64,000 nt of DNA from an uncultured Hyphomicrobiaceae bacterium (lineage in GTDB: Bacteria; Pseudomonadota; Alphaproteobacteria; Rhizobiales; CALHAX01): the NCBI GenBank assembly GCA_937931785.1, contig CALHAX010000008.1, positions 1-64,000 on the forward strand. Direction: 5' to 3'. The number at the start of each line of letters is the position of its first letter. Position 1 is the first letter of the stretch. A program made the translations under genes and the position numbers. Shown piece by piece: positions 31,920 to 61,549 of the stretch. Below the pieces are notes generated by a model that was not told the origin of the DNA, did no database searches, and saw only the letters and a program-made list of their open reading frames with translations.

Positions 31920-31927
31920 CGCGCGAC

Positions 31928-40379: not shown

Positions 40380-40494
40380 ACTCTCCTTGACGGGTCGTTC
40401 CGGGACAGACGTTACAGCCTGTCCGTCGTAACCGGGCGCGTGTCTGCACGCGGTCTTGGATAGTCTCGCCTCATTGGAGAACGCGGGGCAGCAC

Positions 40495-42057
40495 ATGAAC
40501 GATGTGACACCATTGAAGTCAACGGTACGTCCGACACGTTCAGCACGTGGAGGCGGGCGTGCTGCACGTCAATCCACCGCCCGCACGACAGTTGCCCGGC
40601 CCGCTTACATCCAGCGCAAGATTCCATATTTCGAATTCATGGATGAAGAGGCGCTTGTTCGCATCGAAGACCACGCAGACTGGTTGATTCAGGAGATCGG
40701 CATTGAGTTTCGCGACGACCCGCAAGCACTGCGGATCTGGAAAGAAGCCGGCGCTGATGTTGATGGCGTGCGTGTGCGCTTGCCTGCCGGTGTCGCAAGA
40801 GATTTCTGCAAAACCGCCCCGTCGCAAATTACCCAGCACGCCCGCAATCCGGCAAAGACCGTGAAAATGGGGGATGGTGCGATGGTTTTTGCTCCTGTTT
40901 ACGGCCCCCCGTTCGTACGATGCCTCGACATGGGACGGCGCTATGGCTCGCTGGAAGATTTTGAGAACCTCGTCAAGCTGACGTCGATGCTGCCTGCGCT
41001 GCATCATTCGGGCGGCGTCACATGCGAGCCGTGCGATGTTCCCGTCAACAAGCGCCATCTGGATATGGTCTATGGTCACATGCGCTGGTCCGACAAACCG
41101 TTCCTTGGGATGATCACCGAGAAATCACGCGCAGAAGACTCTGTCGCTATGGCGCGGATCCTGTTTGGCGCAGGCTTTATGGACGAGCATTGCGTGATTA
41201 TGGGCAACGTCAATGCCAACTCGCCCCTAATGTTCGACAAGGTTGCGAGCGAAGCAATCCAGGTCTATTGCGGTGCCAACCAGGGGATCATTGTCGTTCC
41301 ATTCATCCTCGGCGGTGCCATGGGCCCTGTCACAACGGCTGCGTCTCTTGGGCAGGCATTCGCAGAAGCAATGATGGCATGTGCATTCAGCCAACTCGTG
41401 CGCCCCGGCGCCCCCTTCATTCTTGGAAATTTTCTCTCCTCAATGAGCCTCAAGTCCGGTGCTCCGACGTTTGGAATGCCGGAGCCGGTGATGTCGAACT
41501 ATGCCATTGGACAATTGGCGCGACGGCTGGGTGTGCCATTGCGTTCCGGTGGTTCGCTGACGGCGTCCAAGTTGCCGGATGCACAAGCGGCATACGAAAG
41601 CGCTGACAGCATGCATTCGACAGCGATCGGTGGAGCGAACTTTGTGCTTCATGCGGCCGGTTGGCTTGAAGCGGGACTCGCCACCTCTTACGAAAAGCTC
41701 TTGATGGATGCCGATCGTCTTGGTGCCTACGAGGTGATGATGAACGGCATCGCCACAGACACAAATGGTCTTGGTCGCTCGGCGTATGATGATACGGAAC
41801 CCGCCGGTCATTTTCTCGGCAGCGGCCACACACTGGCAAATTATGAAACGGCCTACTACGATGCCACGATGTCCAATTCGGAAAGCTTTGAGCAGTGGTC
41901 CGACGAAGGTTCGAAGGATTCCGCCGTGCGAGCCAATGAGCGCTGGAAGAAAATGTTGCGGGACTACGAAGCCCCACCATTGGACGAGGCGAAAGACGAG
42001 GAACTTCGGTCGTTCGTCGCGCAAAAGAAGGCTTCCATGGACGACGCATGGTATTGA
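40495..42057 (+). CDS. MttB-superfamily (trimethylamine methyltransferase-like) protein, no pyrrolysine codon
   Basis: The 520-residue protein has the MttB TIM-barrel pattern, with YIQRKIPYFEFMDEEALVRI early, FAPVYGPPFVRCLDMGRRYG and MITEKSRAEDSVAMARILFG. An in-frame TAG, as in the archaeal pyrrolysine enzymes, is absent, so it belongs to the non-pyrrolysine group. Members of that group demethylate quaternary amines such as glycine betaine or proline betaine, passing the methyl to a corrinoid protein. No corrinoid protein gene lies in the window. A flavoprotein demethylase gene follows. The ATG at 40495 fits better than one upstream. Confidence 0.88.
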   Translation: MNDVTPLKSTVRPTRSARGGGRAARQSTARTTVARPAYIQRKIPYFEFMDEEALVRIEDHADWLIQEIGIEFRDDPQALRIWKEAGADVDGVRVRLPAGVARDFCKTAPSQITQHARNPAKTVKMGDGAMVFAPVYGPPFVRCLDMGRRYGSLEDFENLVKLTSMLPALHHSGGVTCEPCDVPVNKRHLDMVYGHMRWSDKPFLGMITEKSRAEDSVAMARILFGAGFMDEHCVIMGNVNANSPLMFDKVASEAIQVYCGANQGIIVVPFILGGAMGPVTTAASLGQAFAEAMMACAFSQLVRPGAPFILGNFLSSMSLKSGAPTFGMPEPVMSNYAIGQLARRLGVPLRSGGSLTASKLPDAQAAYESADSMHSTAIGGANFVLHAAGWLEAGLATSYEKLLMDADRLGAYEVMMNGIATDTNGLGRSAYDDTEPAGHFLGSGHTLANYETAYYDATMSNSESFEQWSDEGSKDSAVRANERWKKMLRDYEAPPLDEAKDEELRSFVAQKKASMDDAWY

Positions 42058-42102
42058 GACGTTCCTCTGCTCGTAATGGAGAGAGGGAAAAGATGGAATG
42101 AA

Positions 42103-44151
42103 ATGCAAATGACCTCCAATGATCCTCTGCTCCAGTCTTATCAACTCAAGCATCTGACGTTGAAGAACCGCATCATGTCGACGGCGCATGAACCGTCTTA
42201 CTCCGTGGATGGCATGCCGAAGGAGCGTTATCGGCTTTACCACGCGGAAAAGGCGAAGGGTGGTATTGCCATGACGATGACGGCGGGATCAGCCGTTGTC
42301 TCGCAGGACAGTCCGGAAGCATTCGGGAACCTTCACGCTTACAAGGAGGAAATTGTCCCATGGTTGCGGGACATGACGGATGCCTGCCACGAGTACGACT
42401 GCGCCGTCATGATGCAGATTACGCATCTCGGTCGCCGCACAAACTGGAACAAGGGGGATTGGCTGCCTGTCCTCGCTCCATCGCCACTGCGTGAATCTGC
42501 ACACCGCGCGTTCCCGAAAGAGGCGGAAGAATGGGATATCGCCCGTATCGTCGAGGATTACGCAACGGCAGCAGAGCACATGCAGGCGGGCGGGCTGGAC
42601 GGCATCGAACTCGAAGCCTATGGCCATTTGACGGATCAGTTCTGGTCTCCGCTGACCAACACGCGCGAAGATGAGTATGGCGGTTCGCTCGACAATCGCA
42701 TGCGGTTTTCATGGGAGATCATTGACGCCATTCGCAAGCGTGTCGGTCCGGATTTCATCGTCGGTATTCGCATGGTCACGGACGAGATGTCTGATACGGG
42801 TCTGACCAGCGGAGAGGGGATTGAAATCGCGCGCCGGATGGCGACTTCCGGCAAGATCGACTTTCTGAACATCATCAAGGGACGCGTGGACTCAGACGCA
42901 TTGCTGACAAACGTCATTCCTGTGCATGGCATGCAGTCTGCGCCCCATCTTGATTTTGCAGGCGATGTGCGTGCCGCAACAAAATTCCCTGTGTTTCATG
43001 CTGCCCGAATTCCGGATGTCGCGACCGCACGCCATGCCATTGCAGAGGGTAAACTCGACATGGTGGGCATGACGCGTGCGCACATCGCCGATCCGCACAT
43101 CGTCAACAAGATCATGGAAAAGCGTGAGGACGAAATCCGCCCGTGTGTCGGCGCCACGTACTGCCTCGATCGTATTTACGAAGGGCATGAAGCGCTCTGC
43201 ATACACAACCCGGCCACCAGCCGTGAATCCACGATGCCTCAGGTCGTAACGGCGAAAAAGGGAAAAAAACGCAAAGCCGTTATCGTCGGTGCCGGTCCGG
43301 CAGGACTCGAAGCGGCTCGCGTGCTGTCTGCGCGCGGGCACGCTGTGCAGCTTTTCGAAGCCGCAGATCAGGCCGGAGGACAAGTGCGCCTGTCCACGCA
43401 GCTCCCGCGCCGTCGCGAATTCATAGGTATCATCGATTGGCGTATGGCGATGTGTGAGCGACAAGGTGTCGAGATGACATTCAACACGTTCGCGGATGTC
43501 GATGATGTGCTCGCCAGTGAACCGGACGTGGTGATTATCGCCACCGGCGGTCTCCCTAACACGGACATTCTCGCGAGCGGGAACGAACTCGTCGTCTCGG
43601 GCTGGGATATTCTCTCCGGCGACGTGAAACCGGGCGAACAGGTTCTGTTCTACGATGACAACGCTGCCCACGCCGGTTTTGCCGCCGCTGAATTTTTGGC
43701 GCGCGCCGGAGCGGAACTGGAAATCGTTACACCGGAGCGTTTCTTCGCCGCAGACATCGGCGGTCTGAACCACGTGAAATACGCTGAGTGCTTCGCCGAG
43801 AACGATGTCCGGATCACGATCAACACACGTCTCGTGTCTGTTACGAAGAAGGGCAATCGCCTCGAAGCAAATCTGGGCACGGACTACGGCGAACGCACAT
43901 GGACCCGCGAAGTCGATCAGGTCGTCGTTGAACACGGAACCCTGCCGCTGGACGACCTCTACTTCGAACTCAAGCCTCGCTCGAAAAACGAAGGCATTGT
44001 CGATTACCAAAAGCTGATCAATGGCGAGCCTCAGAATGTGGCAACCAATCGTGAGGGAAAGTTTCAGCTCTTCCGTATCGGTGACGCTGTCGCCAGTCGC
44101 AACATCCACGCCGCCATCTACGATGCGTTGCGCCTGTGTAAGGATCTGTGA
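42103..44151 (+). CDS. Iron-sulfur FMN/FAD oxidoreductase, dimethylglycine/N-methylproline demethylase-like
   Basis: The 682-residue protein has an old-yellow-enzyme TIM barrel (LLQSYQLKHLTLKNRIMSTA to MTRAHIADPHIV). An iron-sulfur segment (Cys348, Cys354, Cys366 in IRPCVGATYCLDRIYEGHEA and LCIHN) and a FAD/NAD half (KAVIVGAGPAGLEAARVLSA) follow. Trimethylamine dehydrogenase has four Cys; the second is Ala351 here. Relatives oxidatively remove N-methyl groups, releasing formaldehyde. With MttB next door, successive demethylation of a betaine is likely. The start at 42103 is preferred over ATG 42076, which lacks an SD. Confidence 0.87.
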   Translation: MQMTSNDPLLQSYQLKHLTLKNRIMSTAHEPSYSVDGMPKERYRLYHAEKAKGGIAMTMTAGSAVVSQDSPEAFGNLHAYKEEIVPWLRDMTDACHEYDCAVMMQITHLGRRTNWNKGDWLPVLAPSPLRESAHRAFPKEAEEWDIARIVEDYATAAEHMQAGGLDGIELEAYGHLTDQFWSPLTNTREDEYGGSLDNRMRFSWEIIDAIRKRVGPDFIVGIRMVTDEMSDTGLTSGEGIEIARRMATSGKIDFLNIIKGRVDSDALLTNVIPVHGMQSAPHLDFAGDVRAATKFPVFHAARIPDVATARHAIAEGKLDMVGMTRAHIADPHIVNKIMEKREDEIRPCVGATYCLDRIYEGHEALCIHNPATSRESTMPQVVTAKKGKKRKAVIVGAGPAGLEAARVLSARGHAVQLFEAADQAGGQVRLSTQLPRRREFIGIIDWRMAMCERQGVEMTFNTFADVDDVLASEPDVVIIATGGLPNTDILASGNELVVSGWDILSGDVKPGEQVLFYDDNAAHAGFAAAEFLARAGAELEIVTPERFFAADIGGLNHVKYAECFAENDVRITINTRLVSVTKKGNRLEANLGTDYGERTWTREVDQVVVEHGTLPLDDLYFELKPRSKNEGIVDYQKLINGEPQNVATNREGKFQLFRIGDAVASRNIHAAIYDALRLCKDL

Positions 44152-44190
44152 GCTGGAAGTGGCCGACACATCAATCACCCCATACGAAAA

Positions 44191-44220
44191 AGGACTGGCC
44201 ATGTCGCCATAGCCAGTCCT
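44191..44220 (-). terminator. Rho-independent terminator, leftward
   Basis: Arms AGGACTGGC (44191-44199) and GCCAGTCCT (44212-44220) pair exactly. Read leftward, the hairpin is followed by TTTTTCG. It does not fit the flavoprotein gene, which runs the other way, so it marks a leftward transcript begun within 44230-44800. Confidence 0.7.
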
Positions 44221-44272
44221 CGTTCGTCTGCTCATGCGGATCGTTTGTCAGATCACATGACGCATATCGGAG

Positions 44273-44428
44273 TCAGATGATACTTGGTGGATGGAGATGA
44301 TGGTGGCGCCAGAGGAAATGGGAAACATGTCGAAGATCTTCGCGTAAAGACCCTTCGTCTTGTTCTGAAAAATAGTCCTCATGTTCGTTCGGGCGTTCAG
44401 TCGTATTCGGCAACATGCGTTTCAGCAT
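44273..44428 (-). CDS. Candidate 51-residue small protein ahead of a terminator
   Basis: A GGAG lies six bases before the ATG at 44428. The product starts MLKRMLPNTTERPNEHEDYF and ends with a His-rich LWRHHHLHPPSII. Downstream, 52 bases on, is a leftward terminator. There is no family recognition and third-position GC is not high. The signals around it are better than the sequence itself. Confidence 0.35.
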   Translation of the reverse strand: MLKRMLPNTTERPNEHEDYFSEQDEGSLREDLRHVSHFLWRHHHLHPPSII

Positions 44429-44759
44429 GATTTGCTCCATCGTTTGGATGTGCTGTGTCCAACGCAACCTTCCATCAAACAGCCCTTACGACACGGCAAA
44501 TCTCCACTGACCAACGTATGTTGAATCACGGATCCCTGGAATGTGTTTGGTTCGAGCAATGGCGCACACAGCGGTATTTTCACATTGCCGCACCCGAGAG
44601 TGCGACGTGAGACCTGGGTTGCCTTCGACACCCGAAAGGTGAGGAAGGCGCCTCAGGCGTGAGTGAGGTGCGTTCATCCGTTTTCACCTCTATGGCCGCG
44701 GCTAACGCCGCCAGCCGACTGTGGGAGTCATCCCACGAGTCGAGTCTTGCGGGCAAACG

Positions 44760-44775
44760 TTAAGAAAATGTTAAC
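44760..44775. promoter_or_regulatory. Candidate CtrA-binding site
   Basis: TTAAGAAAATGTTAAC fits the CtrA consensus TTAA-N7-TTAAC exactly. It lies inside an 8-base inverted repeat (AACGTTAA/TTAACGTT), so both strands match. It is 43 bases beyond the TPR gene stop and upstream of the leftward region that holds the small ORF at 44273. CtrA sites of this form control cell-cycle genes in alphaproteobacteria. Confidence 0.4.
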
Positions 44776-44818
44776 GTTGTTTGTCTTGCAACTCGCCCGC
44801 CCGTCGACTTTGCCCGGT

Positions 44819-45391
44819 TCAACTAGTCCAGGGCTTCTGCGCACGATCCATTTTCTCAATCTGCAAAATTCGGCTTTCTGCGGGCAGCTCCATTTGAGCC
44901 CGCAGATAATTCAGTCGTTGTACGACGGTTGGCGGGCGTTCATGGGTGTTGGACAGCAAGCGCTGGAACCACGTCATTCCGTGAACCGCGGCACGACATC
45001 CACCAACTGCGCGGGCATAGTCGCGCATCGCCGCTTCGTGTTTCCCAAGATGGTCAGCAATAATGCCACGTGTCGCATGATTGCAGGCGTCGTCCGGGTC
45101 TGCCGCCACGACGCGTGTCATGATGGCGTGCGCTTCATCATATCGGGCAAGTTGCGCAAGGCTGTTGGCTTGGCCCCGTCGCGCAGCCAGGTTGTCGACG
45201 TCGCTCGCAGCAATCTTCGAGAACAGGCTGTAAGCACGGTTCCAGTCACCGGAATTGAACGCATCTGACGCGGCTTGATGCGCCGCAACTGCCGGGTCGC
45301 GGTTCGAGATGTGATCCCAGGCAAGCACGCCCCCAACAAGCAACGTGCCGACGACAGCAAGGCGTTGCAGAGTCTTCAACGTGTCAGTCAT
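44819..45391 (-). CDS. Membrane-anchored tetratricopeptide-repeat protein
   Basis: The 190-residue protein has an N-terminal signal-anchor (LQRLAVVGTLLVGGVLAWDH). TPR repeats span about residues 33-130 (AASDAFNSGDWNRAYSLFSK, AARRGQANSLAQLARYDEAH, CNHATRGIIADHLGKHEAAM). Such proteins act as protein-protein scaffolds. AAGGA is placed eight bases before the ATG at 45391. It follows the symporter gene by 30 bases on the same strand, so the two are probably cotranscribed. Confidence 0.82.
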   Translation of the reverse strand: MTDTLKTLQRLAVVGTLLVGGVLAWDHISNRDPAVAAHQAASDAFNSGDWNRAYSLFSKIAASDVDNLAARRGQANSLAQLARYDEAHAIMTRVVAADPDDACNHATRGIIADHLGKHEAAMRDYARAVGGCRAAVHGMTWFQRLLSNTHERPPTVVQRLNYLRAQMELPAESRILQIEKMDRAQKPWTS

Positions 45392-45421
45392 ACGCACAAT
45401 CCTTGACCAGTGCTACGATAC

Positions 45422-47419
45422 TCAATCTGTTCTGCGGAGACTGTCCGGTAAACGGTCCCCAAAATCATCATTCAGCGCCTGAACCTCGCGTGGTGGCAGG
45501 GTCGAAAGACCAATGCCTGATGCGAGGAACCACAGCATGAAGACGCCGAGCCCCCACCACAGGATTTGCCAGGCCCAGATGGACGGAATGCCGAAGAACC
45601 ACGTCACGGGCGAATTCGGATCGCCGAAGACCCAGTTTCCAATCACGGCTCCGGGGCCAATGGCGAAGAAGAACCAGATCAGCGCAAAGATCCAGCCTAA
45701 GGGAATGAGATAACGCTGTTCTTCGGGCACGGCTCCGTGATCCCGCAGGAAGGTGTGGAATTTCATCCGGTGCACGTGACCTTCGCTGGTCTGCGTCACA
45801 GTCGAGACAAATGACGCAACGGTCAGATTCACAAGAATGCCCCAGAACGCGGAATGCATGGTCAACGGCCAACGTCCCCATGGCAACTCAAAGCCGAACA
45901 TGATCGCGGCCTGCCCGCCAATTTTCTCCGTTGCGAGAACACCAATGATTCCGGCAATCAGTCCGAGGATAATGCCGGCACGCGTGAAGAACGGCGCGTA
46001 GCAAATCGCGAGAAGCGCCGGGAACATCTGGAATCCGAGCGCAACGGCAAGACCTCCAGCCAGCACCAGATAGTCTGTTGTGTTGACCGCAAACCAGATT
46101 GCGGCAAGCAGAACCAGTCCGACGAAAACACGCCCCATGAACTTCTGGATACGGTGCGTCGCATGCGGCATCAGGTAGTGCTTCATCACATCGCGGGTGA
46201 GCATCGCACTGAACGTTGAAAGGTAGGCCGCGCCCGTCGATTGAATGGCAGCAATTGCACACAACGCAAGAAGACCGACAAGCCACGGCATTTCATCGGC
46301 AAACAGATTGATTAGAAGTGGTACCAGTACATCCTGCTGGCCGGGCAGGTCCATCAGGTCAGATTCTCCCATACTGATGCCAAGGACATTATTCACAATG
46401 CCACCGGCATCGCGTGCCTGGTTCAACTCCAGGTCGGCGCCGAGCAAATGTCCGCCGATGCCCTGAATGGCGGCAAAGATGAAAAGCACGAAGCCGGCAG
46501 CGAAGGCCGTTGCCCAGACCTGCTGAGGGGCAAAGGCTGCGGGACTGCGACTGGCAAACGCCCACATCGTGAAGGCCGGCGTGCACTGGATGCCCATCAA
46601 AGCGATGGTGTAGGTGAGGATCATGACCGCCGTCCACGCACCGCCTGCCGCAGACGGACCATCCTTCGCGAACTGGATCACACCTGGAATTGCAACATAG
46701 TGGCTGTAACCGTCCGGCGTTCGGTTACGATCCTGCTCAGCCAGAAGGGCAATGCCGTCGACCAGTCGATCAAAACCACCGACCAGGTTAAGCACAACCA
46801 ACCCAAGCACGATCATACCAAACCCAAGCAACACACATTGCAGGATGTCGACATAAGCGACCGCGCGCAATCCGCCCGCCGCAACATAAAGGAAGACCAC
46901 GAACGACAGCGCATAGATTACGAAATTGATCGGCAGCATGCCGTCGCTCAGAGTGTTCAGCAGGAACCCCGATGCGCGCAACTGAACCCCAAGAAAAGGG
47001 ATGGTAAACAGCAACGCAACGACGACGACGAGAATTCTGATCGTGTTGCTGCGAAAATATTCGCCGAACATCTCACCAGGCGTCACAAACCCGTAACGCT
47101 TGCCCAGCATCCACTGGCGCTTCATGAACAGGACGCCGGTCAGCGGGATTGTGATCGCGTAGAACGAAGCATAGGCATACTGGAAGCCGTCACGGTAGAT
47201 CAGCCCGGGATGTCCGAGGAAGGTCCATCCTGAGAACGAAGTCGCCGTTGCAGCAAGAATGAATGCCCAGGTTCCAAGACCACGTCCCGCGATGAAATAG
47301 TCGCTTGCACTGCGGGCCTGGGAAGCGCCTCGCACGGCCCAGAACAGGCAATACAGCCAATAGAGACCAATGAATGCAGCCAGCCAGATCAGTTTGGGTT
47401 CAAAGTCGCCGAGATCCAT
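45422..47419 (-). CDS. Sodium:solute symporter family protein
   Basis: The 665-residue protein has about thirteen helices with the SSS pattern: ASDYFIAGRGLGTWAFILAA, ATSFSGWTFLGHPGLIYRDG, VAYVDILQCVLLGFGMIVLG and AIAAIQSTGAAYLSTFSAML. It couples sodium entry to solute uptake in the inner membrane. The substrate (acetate, proline, pantothenate or other) is not evident. No strong SD is visible before the ATG. It is followed by a TPR membrane protein. Confidence 0.9.
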   Translation of the reverse strand: MDLGDFEPKLIWLAAFIGLYWLYCLFWAVRGASQARSASDYFIAGRGLGTWAFILAATATSFSGWTFLGHPGLIYRDGFQYAYASFYAITIPLTGVLFMKRQWMLGKRYGFVTPGEMFGEYFRSNTIRILVVVVALLFTIPFLGVQLRASGFLLNTLSDGMLPINFVIYALSFVVFLYVAAGGLRAVAYVDILQCVLLGFGMIVLGLVVLNLVGGFDRLVDGIALLAEQDRNRTPDGYSHYVAIPGVIQFAKDGPSAAGGAWTAVMILTYTIALMGIQCTPAFTMWAFASRSPAAFAPQQVWATAFAAGFVLFIFAAIQGIGGHLLGADLELNQARDAGGIVNNVLGISMGESDLMDLPGQQDVLVPLLINLFADEMPWLVGLLALCAIAAIQSTGAAYLSTFSAMLTRDVMKHYLMPHATHRIQKFMGRVFVGLVLLAAIWFAVNTTDYLVLAGGLAVALGFQMFPALLAICYAPFFTRAGIILGLIAGIIGVLATEKIGGQAAIMFGFELPWGRWPLTMHSAFWGILVNLTVASFVSTVTQTSEGHVHRMKFHTFLRDHGAVPEEQRYLIPLGWIFALIWFFFAIGPGAVIGNWVFGDPNSPVTWFFGIPSIWAWQILWWGLGVFMLWFLASGIGLSTLPPREVQALNDDFGDRLPDSLRRTD

Positions 47420-52043: not shown

Positions 52044-54050
52044 ATGACACGCGCACTTTGGACACCGACGCCTGACGCAGAACGTACCAGCAATCTTGCT
52101 CGTTTCATGGAGTATCTCGCAGCCGAAGCGCCTGACTTTACTGAACAATACGACGCAAAGAAATTGCCCGCTGAGAACTACGACGCGCTCCACACCTTCT
52201 CTGTTGAACACTCTGCCACGTTTTGGGCAGCCATGTGGCGGTTCGGTGATGTCAGGGGTGATATTGGCGCAGAGCCCTGGCTTGAAAATCCCGTTGCGAT
52301 GCCTGGCGCCAGGTATTTCCCGAACGCGAAACTCAACTTTGCAGAGAATCTTCTGCGTGGCCAAACGGACGATTCCGGTGATGGAACAGCCCTGATCTTC
52401 TGGGGTGAAGACAAGGTCAAATCGCGTGTATCCCACAACGATTTGGCGCGCGCCGCAGCCGGGTTTCAGGGCGTTCTGGACGACGTGGGTATCGTCGCAG
52501 GTGATCGCGTTGCCGCCATCATGCCGAACATGCCCGAGACGATCGCTGCAATGTTGGGCGCATCCGCCAGTGGGGCAGTCTGGTCGTCGTGTTCGCCGGA
52601 TTTCGGGGTCAAGGGCGTACTCGACCGTTTCAGCCAGATCGAACCACGCGTGCTCGTTGCCTGCGACGGTTACTATTACAATGGCAAGATCATCGACATC
52701 CGGGACAAGCTTGTCGAGATTGTCGTCGCGTTACCAAGCGTCGAACGTGTCGTCATCGTGCCCTATGCCGGTGATCTTGAGAGCACCATCTCAGCCGTCG
52801 CTGTCGAGCGCACGGCTCTGGCCTGGAGCGAAGCGGTGGCGAGCACAGACGCCGCCCGACCACACTTCGAACCGCTCCCGTTCGCACACCCACTGTACAT
52901 TCTGTTTTCATCAGGCACGACCGGCGCGCCGAAATGCATTGTGCACTCGGCCGGCGGTACATTACTCCAGCATCTCAAGGAGCATTTGCTCCATTGTGAT
53001 CTGAAGCCCGGCGAAAGGCTGTTCTATTTCACGACCTGCGGCTGGATGATGTGGAATTGGCTCGTAACGGGCCTTGCCGCACAATCGACGCTGCTTCTTT
53101 ATGACGGATCACCTTTCGCGCCGGACGGCAACATCCTCTTCGACTTCGCCGACGCCACACAGATGTCGGTGTTCGGGACGTCAGCAAAATATATAGACGC
53201 CCTCAAAAAGGCGGATCTCCAACCGCGCGAAACTCACGACCTTTCAAGCGTGCGACTGATGACCTCCACGGGCTCGCCACTTGCGCCCGAAAGCTTCGAC
53301 TATGTTTATGAACGCGTGAAACCTGATGTGCACCTTGCTTCCGTTTCCGGCGGTACGGACATCGTGTCCTGCTTTGTGATCGGCAATCCGCTGAAGCCCG
53401 TCTGGCGCGGTGAAATTCAGGGTGCAGGCCTTGGGATGAATGTCGACGTTGCGGACAGCGATGGCAACCATATGCCTTCCGGCAAGGGCGAGCTTGTCTG
53501 CCGCACGCCGTTCCCCTGCATGCCGATCATGTTCTGGAACGATCCGGACGGGAAAAAATATCACGACGCTTATTTCGACCGGTTCGAGAACACGTGGTGC
53601 CACGGAGATTTCGCCGAGTGGACCGAGCATGGCGGGGTAATAATTCACGGTCGATCCGACGCAACGCTCAACCCCGGTGGTGTTCGGATAGGGACGGCTG
53701 AGATATACCGCCAGGTCGAACAGCTCGACGGCGTGATGGAATCCGTTGTGATCGGCCAGGACTGGGATCACGACGTACGCATCGTTCTGTTTGTCGTGCT
53801 GCGGGATGGTGTCGTGCTTGATGACGCACTCTGCGATGCGATCATTCGCCAGATCCGCACCGGTGCATCGCCGCGCCATGTCCCTGCAAAGATCATCGAA
53901 GTTGCCGATATCCCACGCACCAAATCCGGTAAGATCACAGAGCTGGCCATCCGAGATGTTGTTCACGGTCGCCCGATCAAGAACACGGAAGCGCTGGCCA
54001 ATCCGGATGCACTCGAACTCTACAAGGATCTCGACGCGCTCAAATCGTGA
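52044..54050 (+). CDS. Acetoacetyl-CoA synthetase (acetoacetate-CoA ligase)
   Basis: The 668-residue adenylate-forming enzyme has the P-loop-like YILFSSGTTGAPKCIVHSAG, the family motif FYFTTCGWMMWNWLVTGLAA, the adenylation core VSGGTDIVSCFVIGNPLKPV, WCHGDFAEWTEHGGVIIHGR and the C-terminal TKSGKITELAIRDVV. It activates acetoacetate with ATP and CoA, linking ketone bodies or polyhydroxybutyrate turnover to acetyl-CoA. I chose the ATG at 52044 because GGAG lies before it; ATGs eight codons upstream are possible. The next gene overlaps its stop as GTGA. Confidence 0.92.
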   Translation: MTRALWTPTPDAERTSNLARFMEYLAAEAPDFTEQYDAKKLPAENYDALHTFSVEHSATFWAAMWRFGDVRGDIGAEPWLENPVAMPGARYFPNAKLNFAENLLRGQTDDSGDGTALIFWGEDKVKSRVSHNDLARAAAGFQGVLDDVGIVAGDRVAAIMPNMPETIAAMLGASASGAVWSSCSPDFGVKGVLDRFSQIEPRVLVACDGYYYNGKIIDIRDKLVEIVVALPSVERVVIVPYAGDLESTISAVAVERTALAWSEAVASTDAARPHFEPLPFAHPLYILFSSGTTGAPKCIVHSAGGTLLQHLKEHLLHCDLKPGERLFYFTTCGWMMWNWLVTGLAAQSTLLLYDGSPFAPDGNILFDFADATQMSVFGTSAKYIDALKKADLQPRETHDLSSVRLMTSTGSPLAPESFDYVYERVKPDVHLASVSGGTDIVSCFVIGNPLKPVWRGEIQGAGLGMNVDVADSDGNHMPSGKGELVCRTPFPCMPIMFWNDPDGKKYHDAYFDRFENTWCHGDFAEWTEHGGVIIHGRSDATLNPGGVRIGTAEIYRQVEQLDGVMESVVIGQDWDHDVRIVLFVVLRDGVVLDDALCDAIIRQIRTGASPRHVPAKIIEVADIPRTKSGKITELAIRDVVHGRPIKNTEALANPDALELYKDLDALKS

Positions 54051-54529
54051 GCGATCCGTCGGACAGCATTATGGTCAGCACGAAAATCAGACAACCCAAA
54101 TCCTTGCCCCAGATCGGCTGGCGTGAGTGGGTGACATTTCCTGCGTTCAACAATACTCGCGTCAAGGCCAAGATCGACACAGGCGCAAAAACCTCCGCTA
54201 TTCATGCGCGGAAAATTTCAGAAGAACGGGTTGGCGATATATTGTTTGTTATATTTGAACTTCAACCTCGGCAACGGATTAGCAAACCTGTCATAGCCTG
54301 TCGTGCTGAAGTGAGCGACCGCCGTGTCATCCGCAATTCTGGCGGTCACGAAGAGACGCGATATGTCATACGAACGCCGGCCGCTATTGGTCTCTATGAG
54401 ATTGACATCGAGCTGACTTTGACCAGTCGTGACTCCATGGGCTTTCGCATGTTGCTCGGTCGTGATGCAGTCAAGAAGCGGTTTCTCGTCAATCCGGCGC
54501 GTTCCTACCTGCACGGGCACGAAAACTGA
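54047..54529 (+). CDS. RimB-like ATP-dependent zinc protease (retropepsin-like fold)
   Basis: The 160-residue protein has the family motif RVKAKIDTGAKTSAIHARKI. Later parts are ELTLTSRDSMGFRMLLGRDA and KKRFLVNPARSYLHG. These are small aspartic-protease-fold proteins associated with RimK and described as ATP-dependent zinc proteases. The GTG start overlaps the ligase stop as GTGA; an ATG eight codons later is also possible. rimK follows 129 bases downstream. Confidence 0.87.
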   Translation: MSDPSDSIMVSTKIRQPKSLPQIGWREWVTFPAFNNTRVKAKIDTGAKTSAIHARKISEERVGDILFVIFELQPRQRISKPVIACRAEVSDRRVIRNSGGHEETRYVIRTPAAIGLYEIDIELTLTSRDSMGFRMLLGRDAVKKRFLVNPARSYLHGHEN

Positions 54530-54658
54530 TCGCCCGATCGATGCCAGCAATGCTCAAGATAGTGCCTGTCATCCGATCTCGCGATTCCGGCCAGTGCAGC
54601 CTAACGCTAGACCCTGTCTGCGAACACAGGCACACAAGTGCAACGGAGGACGCCATCC

Positions 54659-55564
54659 ATGAACATCGCAATGCTGTGCCGGAACAAAAGCCTTTATTCG
54701 CACCGCAGGCTTGAGGAAGCCGCAGTTGCACGTGGGCATACGTTCGACATGATCAATACGCTGGAAGTGGTAATTAATATCGCATCCCGCAAACCCACAT
54801 TGTATCTTGGTGAATCCCAGCTCACGGGCTATGACGCTGTCATCCCGCGCATTGGGGCGTCGGTCACGTTCTACGGTCTTGCGGTGCTGCGCCAGTTCGA
54901 AATGATGGGCGTATTCCCGCTGAACGAGTCCGTTGCCATCGGGCGTTCGCGTGACAAGTTGCGGTCGATGCAACTCCTGTCACGCAAAGGAATCGGTCTG
55001 CCCGACACGGCATTCGCACACGATCCGAAGCAGGCGGAAAAAGTCCTGCAACTCGTCGGCGGAGCACCGGCAATCATTAAACTCCTTGAGGGAACGCAGG
55101 GCATAGGCGTTGTGCTCGGTGAAACCGAACAGTCGGCCAAGTCCGTCATCGAGGCATTTCGCGGCGTGAAAGTGAATATCCTGGTTCAGCAGTTCATAAA
55201 GGAAGCCGGCGGCTCCGACCTGCGGTGCTTCGTGATTGGCGATAAGGTCATCGCATCCATGCAACGCAAGGGCGCGGAGGGCGAATTTCGCTCCAATCTG
55301 CACCGTGGTGGCACGGCGACCATGGTCAAGACCACGAAAGAGGAGCGCGACACGGCACGCGCTGCAGCAAAGGCGATGGGCTTGAATGTTTGCGGGGTCG
55401 ATCTTCTGCGGTCCGACAACGGGCCAGTCGTTATGGAAGTGAACTCTTCCCCAGGTCTTGAGGGAATCGAAAAAGCGACCGGCAAAGACATCGCCGGCAT
55501 GATCATCGAGTTCATCGAAAAGAACGCGCGCGAGGGTCGTACGCGAACGAGGGGGCAGGGGTAG
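54659..55564 (+). CDS. rimK: RimK-family ATP-grasp ligase (S6 glutamate ligase-like)
   Basis: The 301-residue protein begins [20 protein letters not shown] and has an ATP-grasp fold: [60 protein letters not shown] and the metal-binding [20 protein letters not shown]. RimK adds glutamates to the C-terminus of ribosomal protein S6; relatives modify other targets. GGAGGA precedes the ATG. It lies between a RimB-like protease and an aspartoacylase-like gene, four bases before the latter. Confidence 0.93.
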
Positions 55565-55568
55565 CGTC

Positions 55569-56621
55569 ATGGAGGAAGGCAAGCCACAATCACCACTGGT
55601 GATCGCAGGGCAAACCGTTGAATCAGGCAAGCAGAAACTGATCGACATCCCCGTCGCACACTTGTCGAACCACATTCCGGTCACGCTGCCTGTGCATGTC
55701 GTGCACGGAAAAGAGCCGGGTCCTACGGCGTTTGTCTGCGCCGCCCTGCATGGCGATGAACTGACGGGTGTCGAAGCGATCCGTCGCATTATGCGAATGC
55801 CGGAGTTGAACGATCTGAAGGGCACACTGCTCTGTGTCCCAGTCGTGAATGGTTATGGTTTCATCGTCCATTCCCGTTACCTGCCGGACCGGCGTGACCT
55901 CAATCGACTGTTCCCGGGAACACCGCGTGGTTCGCTCGGTGCGCAACTCGCACATATTTTCATGAATGAAATTGTCGATCGGTCTGATTTCGGCATTGAT
56001 TTGCACACCGCCGCCGTCCACCGGCACAATCTACCACAAATTCGCTCAACCTTCGTCACGGCGCGGTCTCGTGCGCTGGCAAAAGCGTTTGGCGCACCTG
56101 TACTGCTGTCGTCGCCGGAGCGACCAGGGTCACTGCGACAGGCCGCATCCGAGCGTGGCATAGATGTGCTGGTTTACGAAGGTGGCGAAGGTCTGCGTCT
56201 GGACGAACTTTCGATCCGCTCCGCCGTTCGCGGTGTCTTGCGCGTGCTGGCATCCAACGACATGATTGCACTGCCGGATGACGACGGGAGCGATGTTACG
56301 CCTGTCTTCGCCCGCTCAAGCAAATGGATACGAGCACCCGAAGGTGGTGTGGTGCGCACGTTCAAGACATCGGGAGACAGCGTCGTGGCTGGTGAGGTCA
56401 TGGCGATGATCGATAGTCCCTACGGTGACAGTGAAATGGAAATTCCTGCCGAGTTTGACGGTATCATTATCGGTCGAACCAACATGCCCGTTGTCAACCT
56501 CGGTGATGCCCTCTTTCACGTCGCCCGAGTACGCACGCTTGAGGATGCCGAGATCGCAGTGGAAGACCACGCGCGCGAACTCGAAAGCGACCCGGTCTTC
56601 GATGAAGACGAAATCATATGA
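55569..56621 (+). CDS. Succinylglutamate desuccinylase/aspartoacylase-family zinc hydrolase
   Basis: The 350-residue protein has the zinc-binding ALHGDELTGVEAIRRIMRM (His61, Glu64) and FGIDLHTAAVHRH (His146). RDLNRLFPGT carries the substrate-binding Arg. The C-terminal part (about 240-335) is a beta domain. The fold cleaves N-acyl or peptide bonds of amino acids. Its position four bases after rimK indicates a common transcript and suggests removal or processing of glutamate tails. The natural substrate is unknown. Confidence 0.9.
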   Translation: MEEGKPQSPLVIAGQTVESGKQKLIDIPVAHLSNHIPVTLPVHVVHGKEPGPTAFVCAALHGDELTGVEAIRRIMRMPELNDLKGTLLCVPVVNGYGFIVHSRYLPDRRDLNRLFPGTPRGSLGAQLAHIFMNEIVDRSDFGIDLHTAAVHRHNLPQIRSTFVTARSRALAKAFGAPVLLSSPERPGSLRQAASERGIDVLVYEGGEGLRLDELSIRSAVRGVLRVLASNDMIALPDDDGSDVTPVFARSSKWIRAPEGGVVRTFKTSGDSVVAGEVMAMIDSPYGDSEMEIPAEFDGIIIGRTNMPVVNLGDALFHVARVRTLEDAEIAVEDHARELESDPVFDEDEII

Positions 56622-56683: not shown

Positions 56684-59600
56684 TCACTGTACGCGCCAGC
56701 CACGTGCATCTCCTCCCGGTGCGGCGAATGTGATGCCGTCATCACCCCGCGTCACGATAGAACAGATACGCCGACCATCGGCCAGGTAGGAGAGGCGGAA
56801 GCAGATCTGATCGTCGGTCACGCTCCATCGCCCGTTATCGATCCCCGTGGAGCCAAACGTTTCATCCAGCATGACCTCGGCTTGCAACGCTCCATTGGCG
56901 TTGAGGCGAAGCGTGAATCGCTGGCCGCCAAAATCCCGCCCGCCGCGAATGGTCTTGCCGGATAACGCGGTGCGGAGATCTTCGATCGGCACTTCTGGGA
57001 CACTCGCTGCATCAGATTTTGTCCCTGCATCAGGTTCCAAAGATGGCGTAGTCGTCTCGGCGGGAACAACGGTTTCTGACGCTCCAGTGCTCTCCGTTCC
57101 TGCTCCAATCTTGACCTTCGGAGGGACAGGTTCCGTTATTTTCTTCGCTGTCGTGGCGCTGTCAGGTGTTGGCGATGTCAAACTTTCGGATGTCGGTTGC
57201 GTTGCACTTTCTGTTTCCGCACCTGCAATTCTTTTAACCGTCTTCGGGGCATCCGGCTCAACCGTTCCGGTTGCGTCCGTTTTGGCGGCCGTGTCTGATG
57301 TCACAGATGCACCGGCTTCATCCTTGTCAGCCTGACCAAATCGCGATGTTGCATCGATGCTTTTGCGTTTCGGCTGCATCGCATCGTCAAGCGCATGCAT
57401 CATGCTGTCGATTTTCATCTTGTCAGGCTCGGCCCCAACCAACCAGGCAGCCGAGAGCGCAAGGGCGACCCCGATCAGGATGCCCGCCGCCCACGCCAAG
57501 GGACTCGCCGAACCTGCTTGTCCAATGGTCTCCGAAGTCGCGACAGCAGGTATTTCAGCTTCGCTTGCATGCGCGTCGTCCGCATCGGGCTCCGCTGACA
57601 AGGCATCCCAGTTTCCGCGCCTCAACTCAGGCAACAGCGTCGCAATGTTCTTCTCTTCCAGGATGGCGTCTGCAATCCCTTTCGCCGTTCCGGGCGGCCC
57701 AGCGACGAAGGCGCCCACAATCCGTCCGTTCTCGATCACAAGCTTGCGGCGCAACGTGTCAGGTTCGTTCGGATCGACGATTTCCTCCTGCCCGAGCTTT
57801 TTCAGATGCGGTTCGCCGTAAGCCACCACATCGATGTTATCCATCTTGAGCTTCATGACGGTGTGCGGCACGGAACTGCCTTCACGACGCTTGAGAATAT
57901 CGTCCGTTGCGAGTTGGGCGTGCTGCGCCCCGAGCGTCCAGAGGCCGGATGGTCCGCTGCCGAATTCCGCAGCATCACCGATGGCATAGATATGCGGATC
58001 GCTGGTCTTCATCGCATTGTCGACAACAATCCCACGTCGTGTTTCGAGTCCGGAGGCGACGGCAAGTTCCGTCTCGCCGCTGACACCGATGCAGAACAGG
58101 CATATTTGCGCATCGATCACGCGCCCATCTTTCAGGACAGCACGTTCCATGCGTTCGCCCCCCTCAATGCCTGCAATTTCCGAGTTCAGAACGATATTCA
58201 TCCCAAGATCGCGAAGATGGTTGGCGAGAACGAAGCTCGATTTTTCATCCAGATTGAGGTCCATCAGCCGATCGGCACGTTGTACCAGGCTGACGTCCAG
58301 CCCCAGTTGTCGCAGCGCGTCCGCAGCTTCAATGCCCAGCACACCGCCACCTACGACAACCGCGTGACGACAGCGATTGCGTTGCGCAAACGCGCGGATC
58401 TCCAGCGCATCATGGGCCTCACGCAGAACGAATGAACCGGGCATGTTCGCCCCCGGAATCGGCAATACGATGGGTTTGCCACCGGTCGCAAGCAGCAACT
58501 TGTCGTAACTCAGTGTCTCGCCGGTTCCGAGTGCGATATATTTGTTTTCCCGGTCGATGTCGGTGACGAACGTGTTGAGCCAGACGTTGATCTTGTTCTT
58601 TTTTGCCCAGTCGTTCGGCAGCAGATCGAGTCCATCCAGCGCCGTGCGCCCGTAGATCGCCCGGCCGATTGCCATGCGGTTATAGAAATGATGGTTCTCA
58701 CGACTGACGACATCGATTTCGAGTGACGGGCTGGCCTGCCGCAATCGATCAGCCGCCGTCACACCTGCCACTCCGTTGCCGACAATGACAACGCGATTCA
58801 CACCCGCCATTTCAGCGAGATCTTCCGCAGGTGTTGCTGGTGTTACGGTGGCTGCAGCCGCGAGATCGGCTTCCAGATTGATCGTCACCGGTCCTTTTCG
58901 CGCTTTGCACACACAGGCCATGCGCGCCTTGCCTTCAAGGCCGAGGCGGCGCAGCGTTTCCAGTTCGGTCTTGGACGGTGGTGACAGGTTTTCCGCTCCG
59001 TCCTCAATGAACACTGGGTCAGCGCCGCACATTCCGTTGCGGCAACCGAAGTCGATCTGCACACCGGCGTCTTCCATCAGCTCGAGAACGGTCTTGCCGG
59101 GGACAAGCGAAATAGTCTTGCCTTTCGAGCGCTCAATGAGCACGGCCCGACCGCTGTTCGCAGCCTGTTCTGCGCCGACATCGGCCATGCCACCGTCACG
59201 CATCGCAGCAACCTGAGCCTCATAGGCTTGCTCCAGTCGAAGTCCGGCGTAGAGGTTGCGTGCGGCCACTACCACAACCACAGCTTGCAGCAGATAGGCG
59301 AGAATGTCTGGCAGGCGCATGTCGAACACATCCCGCAGGCCCCCAACAATCACGGGGGCGGCAAACCAGTAGTAGAGAAAGAGCGCTGTAACGCCGTAGA
59401 TCGCGGCGACTTTGTAGATGCTTTTTTTCAGGATCGACGTCAGGATGAAAAAACTCCCAGCCGATGCGATCAACCAGAGCGCGGTCTCCTGGAAATACGC
59501 CATGTAGCCGATCACAGACGGCGAACGACCAAGCCAGAATGACAGGATCAGCCCTGGGAGCACGCCGATAAACATCTGCCGATGGCCAGCGTACCACGTG

Positions 59601-60229
59601 TCCTTGTCGGACAGGTCCGCAAAGAACGCAGATCGTGGAGAAAAATCATAGCAGTTCTTCTGGCAGCCGACACATCCGGTTTCGCAATAACCGTTCTTCA
59701 CCAACATCGCCGGGGCGTGTCCGTAGACTTTTTGTAATGGTCCGAGTGGGCAGAACGTTCCGCACCACCCGCTGCGTCCCTTGAAAATCAATCCACCGAC
59801 AAACGCGGCACCAAGTGCTGCGGCCGCCAGGAACAAGAGTGAGAGCGGCGACTCGTACAAGGTCACATGCTTCAGCGCGACGAAGATCACGAACGCAACC
59901 ATGGCAAAAAGATATGAGGATTCTTTAAGCCACATAGGTAACGTGCGTTCGGCCGAAAATCCCATACGTACCGGCAACTGGTTGAAGAACGCCATCGGAC
60001 AAACCTGTCGCCAGATGCCGGGCACCAGCGCGAAAATCAGTGGCAATGAGGGAATGAAGATTCGCCAGAACAGCGTAATGCCAAGCTCTGGATCAAAGAT
60101 GAGCGTGGCGAGAACGGCAAACGTAACGGCCAGAGTCACAATGCGTGCGATCACCCAGACCCACGATGGGACCCTTGTTGGCATATCGGTATAGGGGCGG
60201 AACACACCGGTTGCTACAGGTTCGCTCAT
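56684..60229 (-). CDS. Fusion of NapH-like 4Fe-4S membrane domain, ferredoxin domain and FAD/NAD oxidoreductase
   Basis: The product is 1181 residues. Residues 25-330 are membrane helices with GWCGTFCPLGPL (Cys156, Cys160) and CETGCVGCQKNC (Cys182, 186, 189, 193), as in NapH/NosR-type electron carriers. Residues 370-455 form a 2Fe-2S-like domain with Cys396, Cys401, Cys439 and Cys441, but Asp404 at the usual third Cys. Residues 478-870 form a two-dinucleotide-fold oxidoreductase (VIVGNGVAGVTAADRLRQ; VVVGGGVLGIEAADALRQLG) like the N-terminal part of NirB. A helix (912-932), a Thr/Pro-rich linker and a short beta domain (1083-1181) follow. It probably moves electrons between NAD(P)H and a membrane partner. 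Confidence 0.88.
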   Translation of the reverse strand: MSEPVATGVFRPYTDMPTRVPSWVWVIARIVTLAVTFAVLATLIFDPELGITLFWRIFIPSLPLIFALVPGIWRQVCPMAFFNQLPVRMGFSAERTLPMWLKESSYLFAMVAFVIFVALKHVTLYESPLSLLFLAAAALGAAFVGGLIFKGRSGWCGTFCPLGPLQKVYGHAPAMLVKNGYCETGCVGCQKNCYDFSPRSAFFADLSDKDTWYAGHRQMFIGVLPGLILSFWLGRSPSVIGYMAYFQETALWLIASAGSFFILTSILKKSIYKVAAIYGVTALFLYYWFAAPVIVGGLRDVFDMRLPDILAYLLQAVVVVVAARNLYAGLRLEQAYEAQVAAMRDGGMADVGAEQAANSGRAVLIERSKGKTISLVPGKTVLELMEDAGVQIDFGCRNGMCGADPVFIEDGAENLSPPSKTELETLRRLGLEGKARMACVCKARKGPVTINLEADLAAAATVTPATPAEDLAEMAGVNRVVIVGNGVAGVTAADRLRQASPSLEIDVVSRENHHFYNRMAIGRAIYGRTALDGLDLLPNDWAKKNKINVWLNTFVTDIDRENKYIALGTGETLSYDKLLLATGGKPIVLPIPGANMPGSFVLREAHDALEIRAFAQRNRCRHAVVVGGGVLGIEAADALRQLGLDVSLVQRADRLMDLNLDEKSSFVLANHLRDLGMNIVLNSEIAGIEGGERMERAVLKDGRVIDAQICLFCIGVSGETELAVASGLETRRGIVVDNAMKTSDPHIYAIGDAAEFGSGPSGLWTLGAQHAQLATDDILKRREGSSVPHTVMKLKMDNIDVVAYGEPHLKKLGQEEIVDPNEPDTLRRKLVIENGRIVGAFVAGPPGTAKGIADAILEEKNIATLLPELRRGNWDALSAEPDADDAHASEAEIPAVATSETIGQAGSASPLAWAAGILIGVALALSAAWLVGAEPDKMKIDSMMHALDDAMQPKRKSIDATSRFGQADKDEAGASVTSDTAAKTDATGTVEPDAPKTVKRIAGAETESATQPTSESLTSPTPDSATTAKKITEPVPPKVKIGAGTESTGASETVVPAETTTPSLEPDAGTKSDAASVPEVPIEDLRTALSGKTIRGGRDFGGQRFTLRLNANGALQAEVMLDETFGSTGIDNGRWSVTDDQICFRLSYLADGRRICSIVTRGDDGITFAAPGGDARGWRVQ

Positions 60230-60391
60230 GGGGCGGTCTCTGGCTCGTATATATTTTGCAGGAACTGTTAGCACGTTTTGAAACAGACAGTGCAGCACGC
60301 AGAGACAAGTCCACATCCTGGCACCATGATCAGGGACAACCCGTTTCGGTTCGTGACAAGAGTCGCGGCCCCCTCACGAAAACGCAGCTCT

Positions 60392-61549
60392 CTATTGTCG
60401 CAACGCCCTGCGACGGCGGTCACGAGCGATGCTACGCACCGTTCGGCCAGGTCTTGTGACCGCACTGGAGGACGCAGACCCCTTGCGGACGTAGCTTTCG
60501 CCACCCTGGCGAATGCCAGCCGTGCGCACGCCGCGCCGTGCCAGTTTTTTGCGTTGATTCGCGACCCAGCGTTTGCAGCTCGGGAGCCGCAGGTTACATT
60601 TGACAATAATTTTGGGTGCCACTGGTTTCCGCTTCGCGATCGATTTGCGGGATTGGGAAGATGCCGTCCTGCTTTTCGCCTTCGTTTTGATTTTGGAACT
60701 GGTCGGAACCTGCCACGTCGGCACGCACTTTTCTGGTGGATTGGCCGTGTCACCTGGCGTGACATAACGCGTGCCGCAGACACGAACGCCCGGGAGTGTC
60801 TGCGTTTCCATGAATGATGCATAAATCGGTTTCAACATCGACCAGAAATCGAAGGATTTGTGCGTTCTCTTTGCCGTAAGTTTTTCGTCTGTCAGGTGGA
60901 ACGGAAAGATGTGCGTTGAGACGCGCTTCTGCCCTCCTTCGAAAGACGCATCGAGAATACGATAAATTTCCTCGATACCACGGTCGGTCATGGCGTAACA
61001 GCCGACTGATCCGCAGCCGCCATGAATTTGTAGATATGAACCCGTTCGACCATTCTGCGTATCGTAAGCATTCGGGAAATCAAGATTGACGGCGCGATGG
61101 TTTTTCGTGCGCGAGAGCAACTGCTTGCGAGTGACGGAATAAACCCCTTCCGGTGATTGTTCGTCACCTTCCTGCAGTTTTGGTCCAAGCTTTCCCGACC
61201 ATTTGCAAATCTTGAAATCCTTGAACTTCTCGTATTTAGCTCCCTTCTTGAGCCACATCTCGACAACGTTCTCTTCCTTGTAGATACGCATATGTGCAGC
61301 GCTGCCCCAGGAAAACCCGCCATTCGCCATGTCCTTGCGAAGAATGCCCTCGATCCAACCAACCTTTGATGCGGGGGGCTTGGTCTGTATCGTCTGCAGT
61401 ATGCTGGGTGTTGGTGTGGTTGTCGCAGCCGACTGGGCCAGCAACACAGTCGGCGTCGTCAATAACACGATGGCCGCAGCGGAGCCCGTGCGGAGCCAGT
61501 TGGAGGCGTTAGTGCGTCGCAGATCAAAAAGCATCGCTGTCAAATTCAT
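60392..61549 (-). CDS. YafK-type L,D-transpeptidase with basic C-terminal tail
   Basis: The 385-residue protein starts with a signal segment (AAAIVLLTTPTVLLAQSA). The YkuD-type catalytic domain (about 60-250) has SYLQIHGGCGSVGCYAMTDR with His176 and nucleophile Cys184, and SPEGVYSVTRKQLLS before it. A very basic tail (about 285-385, Arg/Lys-rich) follows with two Cys. Such enzymes act on peptidoglycan in the periplasm, and some cleave or attach lipoproteins. It lies between the redox fusion gene and aroB on the same strand with moderate gaps. Confidence 0.87.
   Translation of the reverse strand: MNLTAMLFDLRRTNASNWLRTGSAAAIVLLTTPTVLLAQSAATTTPTPSILQTIQTKPPASKVGWIEGILRKDMANGGFSWGSAAHMRIYKEENVVEMWLKKGAKYEKFKDFKICKWSGKLGPKLQEGDEQSPEGVYSVTRKQLLSRTKNHRAVNLDFPNAYDTQNGRTGSYLQIHGGCGSVGCYAMTDRGIEEIYRILDASFEGGQKRVSTHIFPFHLTDEKLTAKRTHKSFDFWSMLKPIYASFMETQTLPGVRVCGTRYVTPGDTANPPEKCVPTWQVPTSSKIKTKAKSRTASSQSRKSIAKRKPVAPKIIVKCNLRLPSCKRWVANQRKKLARRGVRTAGIRQGGESYVRKGSASSSAVTRPGRTVRSIARDRRRRALRQ

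Follow-up and report, generated by a model that had tools for sequence, protein, structure and literature searches.

NqrF, a subunit of the Na+-pumping NADH:quinone reductase, carries a membrane anchor, a plant-type 2Fe-2S domain, flavin adenine dinucleotide (FAD) and NADH in one chain that feeds quinone, and NapH has two C-terminal 4Fe-4S ferredoxin motifs. NapH-like proteins are modular membrane electron carriers that work with a wide range of partners (PMC8238504). This study concerns a gene at 56684..60229 on the minus strand of a 64,000-nucleotide stretch of DNA from an uncultured Hyphomicrobiaceae bacterium (contig CALHAX010000008.1, positions 1 to 64,000), referred to below as the window. 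Its product of 1181 residues consists, by reading frame, Pfam and AlphaFold2, of a NapH-like membrane module, a plant-type 2Fe-2S (Fer2) domain, a FAD/NAD(P) oxidoreductase domain, a further transmembrane helix, a linker and a small beta barrel, in that order. It is proposed, with a probability of roughly 55%, that this protein is an inner-membrane, single-chain NAD(P)H:quinone-type oxidoreductase that is normally gated by a partner.

A conserved fusion in one reading frame

The gene runs from an ATG at 60229 to a stop at 56684 (1181 codons), and the plus-strand reading of the same interval is riddled with stops. The minus-strand frame stays open upstream as far as an ATG at 60316, but 60229 was taken as the start because it fits the start seen in the family. 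Scanning for promoters and terminators yielded nothing of use. Pfam matches were found for Fer4_5 (residues 137-170), Fer2 (368-443) and Pyr_redox_2 (479-765), along with a weak, sub-threshold match to Rubredoxin_C (793-858). The whole-chain AlphaFold2 model, built on a 36-sequence alignment (mean predicted local distance difference test score, pLDDT, 74.5), has eight N-terminal membrane helices and a ninth helix at 911-930, followed by about 130 low-confidence residues (about 950-1080) and a beta domain after residue 1081; confidence was high for the FAD/NAD domains and moderate to low for the 2Fe-2S domain. A preliminary description of this DNA had read a single 1181-residue chain in one frame, leaving the strand unstated, with NapH-like, 2Fe-2S and NirB-type FAD/NAD(P) modules, an extra helix, a disordered Thr/Pro stretch and a terminal beta domain. 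The single frame is borne out, the domain search that it suggested returned the Pfam matches in the expected order, its module assignment agrees with Pfam, NCBIfam and AlphaFold2, and the helix, the beta domain and, as low-confidence residues, the Thr/Pro stretch are seen again in the model.

The first ~880 residues belong to a conserved, fused family that is uncharacterised and is not peculiar to the window's genome; cultivated carriers include Rubrivivax albus and a Rhodoblastus isolate. Scanning the genomes of GTDB with a pattern turned up 39 loci from alpha-, beta- and gammaproteobacteria, and those with a complete gene encode about 880 residues in one frame that are 33-47% identical to window residues 1-880. 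This part is carried unsplit by 34 full-length database homologues besides that of G038, a genome from another family of the same order, whose frame of 1252 codons has the whole architecture including the tail (55% identity). The family is patchy, since among 399 sampled genomes of the phylum just one more matched the NapH and Fer2 part, with a stand-alone NapH-like protein that is 28% identical. In plasmid records the matches were partial and confined to the reductase part, being NirB where annotated. No description of this domain combination or architecture was found in the literature searched, mostly outside subscription journals, and this is not proof of absence.

That separate genes were joined here by a sequencing or assembly error is hardly credible. 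The preliminary description had suggested collecting homologues and looking for ones that are always split at the same junctions, together with a frame error in this gene; those collected keep the module order instead. This fusion recurs in 35 further full-length loci, which come from independent assemblies, and no database locus found encodes the modules separately at the junctions. The only broken genes, in L029 and L038, are interrupted internally by apparent frame errors in metagenome assemblies, and nothing else was found in support of an artefact. A frame error or chimera was ruled out because the fusion is kept across independent assemblies.

Cofactor sites and the predicted electron path

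Electrons would enter at the two-nucleotide FAD and NAD(P) oxidoreductase domain of NirB/rubredoxin-reductase type (residues 478-870, 57620..58798), where NAD(P)H, probably NADPH, would reduce FAD. This domain matches Pyr_redox_2 (E 3.5e-60) and TodA (E 2.8e-38), its best NCBIfam match is TIGR02374 (NirB; residues 480-863 against profile positions 1-389, E 6.8e-80, 269.5 bits), and its FAD and NAD Gly-rich motifs are invariant in the 36 aligned sequences. NirB family membership was ruled out, as the score is under the curated cut-off of 578 bits, the match stops at position 389 of 794 and the sirohaem/4Fe-4S half is missing. The coenzyme-discriminating loop, V-S-L-V-Gln650-Arg651 (58262..58294), was compared with the family consensus and with TodA. 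It has no acidic residue, and at the end of the second NAD-domain strand 32 of the 36 sequences have Gln or His followed by Arg, whereas TodA has an acidic Glu. The PDB entries 4h4p to 4h50 represent BphA4 proteins mutated in the coenzyme loop (E175/T176/Q177), of which the triple mutant E175Q/T176R/Q177G (4h4z) matches the window protein better than wild type does. Coenzyme-loop mutations of the BphA4 type favour NADPH. Because the loop has Gln/His-Arg in place of an acidic residue, NADPH is suggested as the preferred coenzyme.

From FAD, electrons would pass singly to a 2Fe-2S cluster held by three Cys and one Asp in the Fer2 domain (residues 365-450, 58880..59137). This domain scores 35.1 bits against PF00111, above the gathering cut-off of 21, and it matches ferredoxin-4 (9i2a, E 1.5e-11). 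The ligands assigned from the alignment are Cys396, Cys401 and Asp404 (59018..59044 through Asp404), with Cys439 as the fourth, and all of them are invariant in 36/36 sequences. The Fer2 set of four Cys ligands is therefore incomplete, since Asp404 stands at the third position, where it aligns with a Cys of ferredoxin-4. An Asp in place of one Cys ligand is known from the 2Fe-2S domain of E. coli SdhB, so Asp ligation would be unusual yet would have a precedent.

The 2Fe-2S cluster would in turn reduce the 4Fe-4S cluster(s) of the NapH-like module at the cytoplasmic face of the membrane, and these would reduce a membrane quinone. The module (residues 1-340, 59210..60229) has eight predicted helices with the N-terminus inside, according to AlphaFold2, the distribution of Lys and Arg and the NapH profile. 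The match to that profile has E 1e-4 in the window protein and 2e-9 in the homologue L030, and the NapH/MauN profiles TIGR02163 and NF007013 give 18-22 bits here and 37 in L030, short of their cut-offs of 213 and 234. Membership of the NapH family was ruled out on these scores, which are far under the curated cut-offs. The NapH-type membrane Cys-Pro motif (CxxxCP) is present, first as Cys77-Pro (Cys77, 59999..60001, in 35/36 homologues) and then as Cys156-x3-Cys160-Pro (59750..59764), which lies in the Fer4_5 match and is invariant in 36 homologues. The alignment also shows a 4Fe-4S-type motif, Cys182-x3-Cys186-x2-Cys189-x3-Cys193 (59651..59686), whose four Cys are invariant in the 36 sequences. 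It is the only such motif, and there is no other invariant Cys ahead of the Fer2 domain. In the window protein it begins with CETGC, as opposed to CxxC (in CxxCxxCxxxC) in 35 relatives, which is a unique in-frame insertion of one residue.

The 36 sequences have a mean of 16.6 Lys and Arg per chain on the N-terminal side of the membrane versus 0.8 on the other, and it is to the positive side that the Cys motifs, the 2Fe-2S domain and the FAD/NAD domain all belong. All cofactor sites are predicted to face the cytoplasm because of this strong positive-inside bias over eight helices. The periplasmic loops of the core are only 1, 3, 8 and 6 residues long (~18 in total), which argues for a quinone or other membrane acceptor over a periplasmic protein. 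The preliminary description had left the choice between a periplasmic and a quinone partner for NAD(P)H; quinone is retained as the best reading, whereas a periplasmic partner is disfavoured by the cytoplasmic cofactors and tiny loops. If this electron path holds, the protein would be a one-protein entry from NAD(P)H to the membrane that could be assayed as a single chain.

Partner genes, the probable envelope tail and alternative functions

In most family members the activity would be set by a partner encoded just upstream, which in one branch is a free-standing cyclic-nucleotide-binding (cNMP) domain and in another a degenerate version of that domain, accompanied by an FHA protein of the TagH type that reads phosphothreonine. 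The preliminary description had also suggested asking which genes neighbour the homologues, and a cNMP_binding-domain protein of ~155 residues was found directly upstream on the same strand in 35/41 loci, at a median gap of 27.5 bases (34 measured). It is missing from the window, L013, L014, L030, L036 and L041; the L013 N-terminus looks chimeric, L014 has an FHA gene instead, and the contigs of L036 and L041 start at the gene. An FHA gene is present in 16 loci (on the opposite strand in one of them). With the TagH profile TIGR03354, which has a cut-off of 120, the L027 protein scores 281 bits and the L014 protein 130. No other partner recurring across the family was found among the neighbours. 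Examples of TagH-type FHA genes beside the oxidoreductase gene lie at 5711-7384 of L027, 6693-7880 of L014 and 5686-7449 of L037.

The pocket residues of the partners were scored against E. coli CRP as a ruler. Equivalents of Glu72 and Arg82 are kept by every one of the 20 partners whose loci have no FHA gene, those of L009 and L045 among them, although in two of the 20 loci (L017 and L026) the sequence covered ahead of the partner is shorter than 700 bases and an FHA gene farther away could be missed. Glu72 is lost in all 15 partners from FHA loci, and Arg82 is lost too in 13 of them. An intact pocket and an FHA gene are mutually exclusive without exception in 35 loci, with a plain exact test giving 3e-10, but the loci are related. 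The core tree gives three changes for the FHA/degenerate status and four for the intact status, so the exclusion represents few evolutionary events and not 35. If the partner does gate the enzyme, a second messenger or protein phosphorylation would set membrane electron flow at the level of the enzyme and not of gene expression only, and the exchange between an intact pocket without FHA and a degenerate one with FHA makes gating directly testable.

A role as a component of type VI secretion was considered, given that the FHA neighbour is TagH by profile, and was rejected as the general case. Most host genomes have no TssC match (it was found in only 11/35, and in none of the tested Accumulibacter genomes carrying the FHA gene), though drafts may miss genes, and neither TssC/VipB nor TagH was found in the window's genome (G000) or in G038. 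With no TssC match in the Accumulibacter carriers, TagH-like proteins may have a function that is not tied to type VI secretion.

In the window's genome the partner gene appears to be gone, and a helix, a linker and a periplasmic, lipocalin-like barrel would have been added. The window yielded no homologue of the cNMP or FHA genes, and the genome has no clear partner orthologue elsewhere, its best cNMP-domain protein being ~31% identical to the family partner versus 44-45% for the partner in G038. That genome has a partner with an intact pocket upstream of its oxidoreductase frame. The usual place of the cNMP-binding gene is taken by a co-directional upstream YkuD-like gene (60392..61549, minus strand; Pfam YkuD, E 5.9e-5) that is probably not part of the system. 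The preliminary description had called the route self-contained. This stands for the cofactor chain but not for the genetics, as the gene is elsewhere paired with a small cNMP-binding protein, which a TagH-type FHA protein may or may not accompany.

The extra tail of ~300 residues is found only in the window protein and G038, and none of the 34 full-length database homologues has it. It consists of the ninth membrane helix, which would lead to the periplasm (residues 911-930, 57440..57499; hydropathy 2.07), a Thr/Ala/Pro/Ser-rich linker (936-1083, 56981..57424; pLDDT below 50 over most of 950-1080) and the beta barrel (1084-1181, 56687..56980), which AlphaFold2 models with a mean pLDDT of 91.4. 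The two Cys of the barrel, Cys1143 and Cys1156, are invariant across 18 relatives, which are mostly 125-160 residues long with signal-peptide-like N-termini, a few being fused to SH3 domains. The barrel matched no family among the Pfam and NCBIfam models tested, and Foldseek gave weak matches (best E 9e-3, template-modelling score ~0.5) to lipocalin-like envelope proteins, NlpE and the ToxS periplasmic domain. The barrel is probably periplasmic, because it resembles small exported lipocalin-like proteins. A widespread, unnamed exported family of this order (L069-L096) has ~130 residues, two invariant Cys and a predicted barrel, and none of the Pfam or NCBIfam models tested covers it.

A class III cyclase encoded elsewhere in this genome terminates in the same linker and barrel, with 34-37% identity over residues 990-1180. 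The cyclase has a membrane helix ahead of the linker and, by reading, the metal-binding Asp residues of an active enzyme. Its presence on an oxidoreductase and on a cyclase makes the tail, as judged from sequence, a mobile helix-linker-barrel envelope cassette attached to two unrelated cytoplasmic enzymes. The C-terminal domain, unexplained in the preliminary description, is thus partly accounted for as a lipocalin-like envelope barrel that a cyclase also carries. A link between this cyclase and the cyclic-nucleotide-binding partners elsewhere is suggestive only. The cyclase gene itself (class III adenylate/guanylate type, with a Pro/Thr-rich linker) lies at 1492-2784 of L003 (contig C2, match 96787-97383).

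Some of these data weigh against an NAD(P)H:quinone-type oxidoreductase that is gated by its partner. No neighbouring reductase, cytochrome or quinone enzyme is conserved among the family loci, so the acceptor is a putative one, and the cNMP pairing is genetic and not physical evidence of gating. Asp404 is likewise a candidate ligand, for which Cys441, beside the fourth ligand in 32/36 sequences, is a possible alternative; however, ferredoxin-4 has the same extra Cys alongside ordinary ligands, so Cys441 is probably unneeded. The insertion in the 4Fe-4S motif and the loss of the partner gene suggest that the window copy may be diverging. A more detailed scenario can be offered only tentatively, namely that the gating subunit first bound a cyclic nucleotide and in the course of evolution came to work with the FHA protein instead, that the window's branch swapped this input for the barrel shared with the cyclase, and that the NADPH:quinone enzyme is gated directly.

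Other functions would fit part of the same data. The NapH-like module could feed a metal ion or a periplasmic substrate, with the barrel binding that substrate, as NapH-like domains serve many different partners (PMC8238504) and the tail adds a putative periplasmic, lipocalin-like barrel with two invariant Cys. Such a metal or small-molecule reductase is nevertheless unlikely, given periplasmic core loops of 1-8 residues, a barrel that only this protein and that of G038 possess and the lack of any metal-related gene recurring among the neighbours. Transfer to a metal ion or periplasmic substrate has been proposed for the FixG/CcoG family; CcoG, a cupric reductase, has a terminal periplasmic domain as well. 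Since all steps are reversible in principle, electrons could also run from quinol back to NAD(P)+, or the NADPH pool could be poised against quinone under second-messenger control. The coenzyme loop, which suggests NADPH, and the conserved signalling partner, which suggests switching over steady respiration, are consistent with this. However, transfer from quinol to NADP+ is uphill and no ion-translocation module was recognised by Pfam, which makes the reverse or balancing route less likely still. Lowest in rank among these functions is a redox sensor, mainly a signalling receptor with little catalytic flux, that would inform the cNMP/FHA partner of the NAD(P)H or quinone state. The sole recurrent neighbours are indeed signalling domains, and the barrel tail is common to the class III cyclase of the same genome, but a sensor would not need all of the cofactor and dinucleotide motifs, which are complete and invariant and suggest catalysis.

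Neighbouring genes and comparison with known systems

Convergent with the oxidoreductase gene is a row of three genes at 54047-56621 which, by Pfam, encode a putative Zn/aspartic-protease-like protein, a RimK-like ATP-grasp protein and an AstE/AspA-like hydrolase. Farther away, 40456-47419 encodes, by reading, an MttB-like methyltransferase, an OYE/FAD-NAD demethylase-like protein and a sodium:solute symporter, and is probably a cluster for the use of methylated amines or betaine. In two Rhodoblastus genomes (L015 10679-11824 and L018 10512-11657) the oxidoreductase gene is followed directly by a gene for a patatin-like protein, also assigned by reading, and the window has a patatin-like frame at 31832-32953 that is unlinked to the oxidoreductase gene.

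The likeness to NapH, the membrane ferredoxin subunit of periplasmic nitrate reductase, lies in membrane helices with Cys-Pro motifs that are followed by a 4Fe-4S motif. However, the window protein has eight helices and a single ferredoxin motif, is fused to Fer2 and flavin reductase domains, and has no nap genes seen nearby. The likeness to the N-terminal FAD/NAD domain of NirB runs into the subdomain beyond the NAD domain, but the sirohaem/sulfite-reductase half is wholly absent. Putidaredoxin, toluene-dioxygenase and rubredoxin reductases (3lb8, 3ef6 and 2v3a) have the same FAD/NAD fold and likewise reduce a small iron-sulfur protein or rubredoxin, although they are soluble and use separate carriers. 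E. coli SdhB shares the replacement of Cys by Asp in a plant-type 2Fe-2S domain, whereas the overall protein and its partner differ. The FHA neighbour of one branch matches TagH/Fha of type VI secretion by profile, but no TssC was found in its Accumulibacter carriers. NqrF shares the one-chain layout, though it has a different reductase fold and is a subunit of a six-subunit pump.

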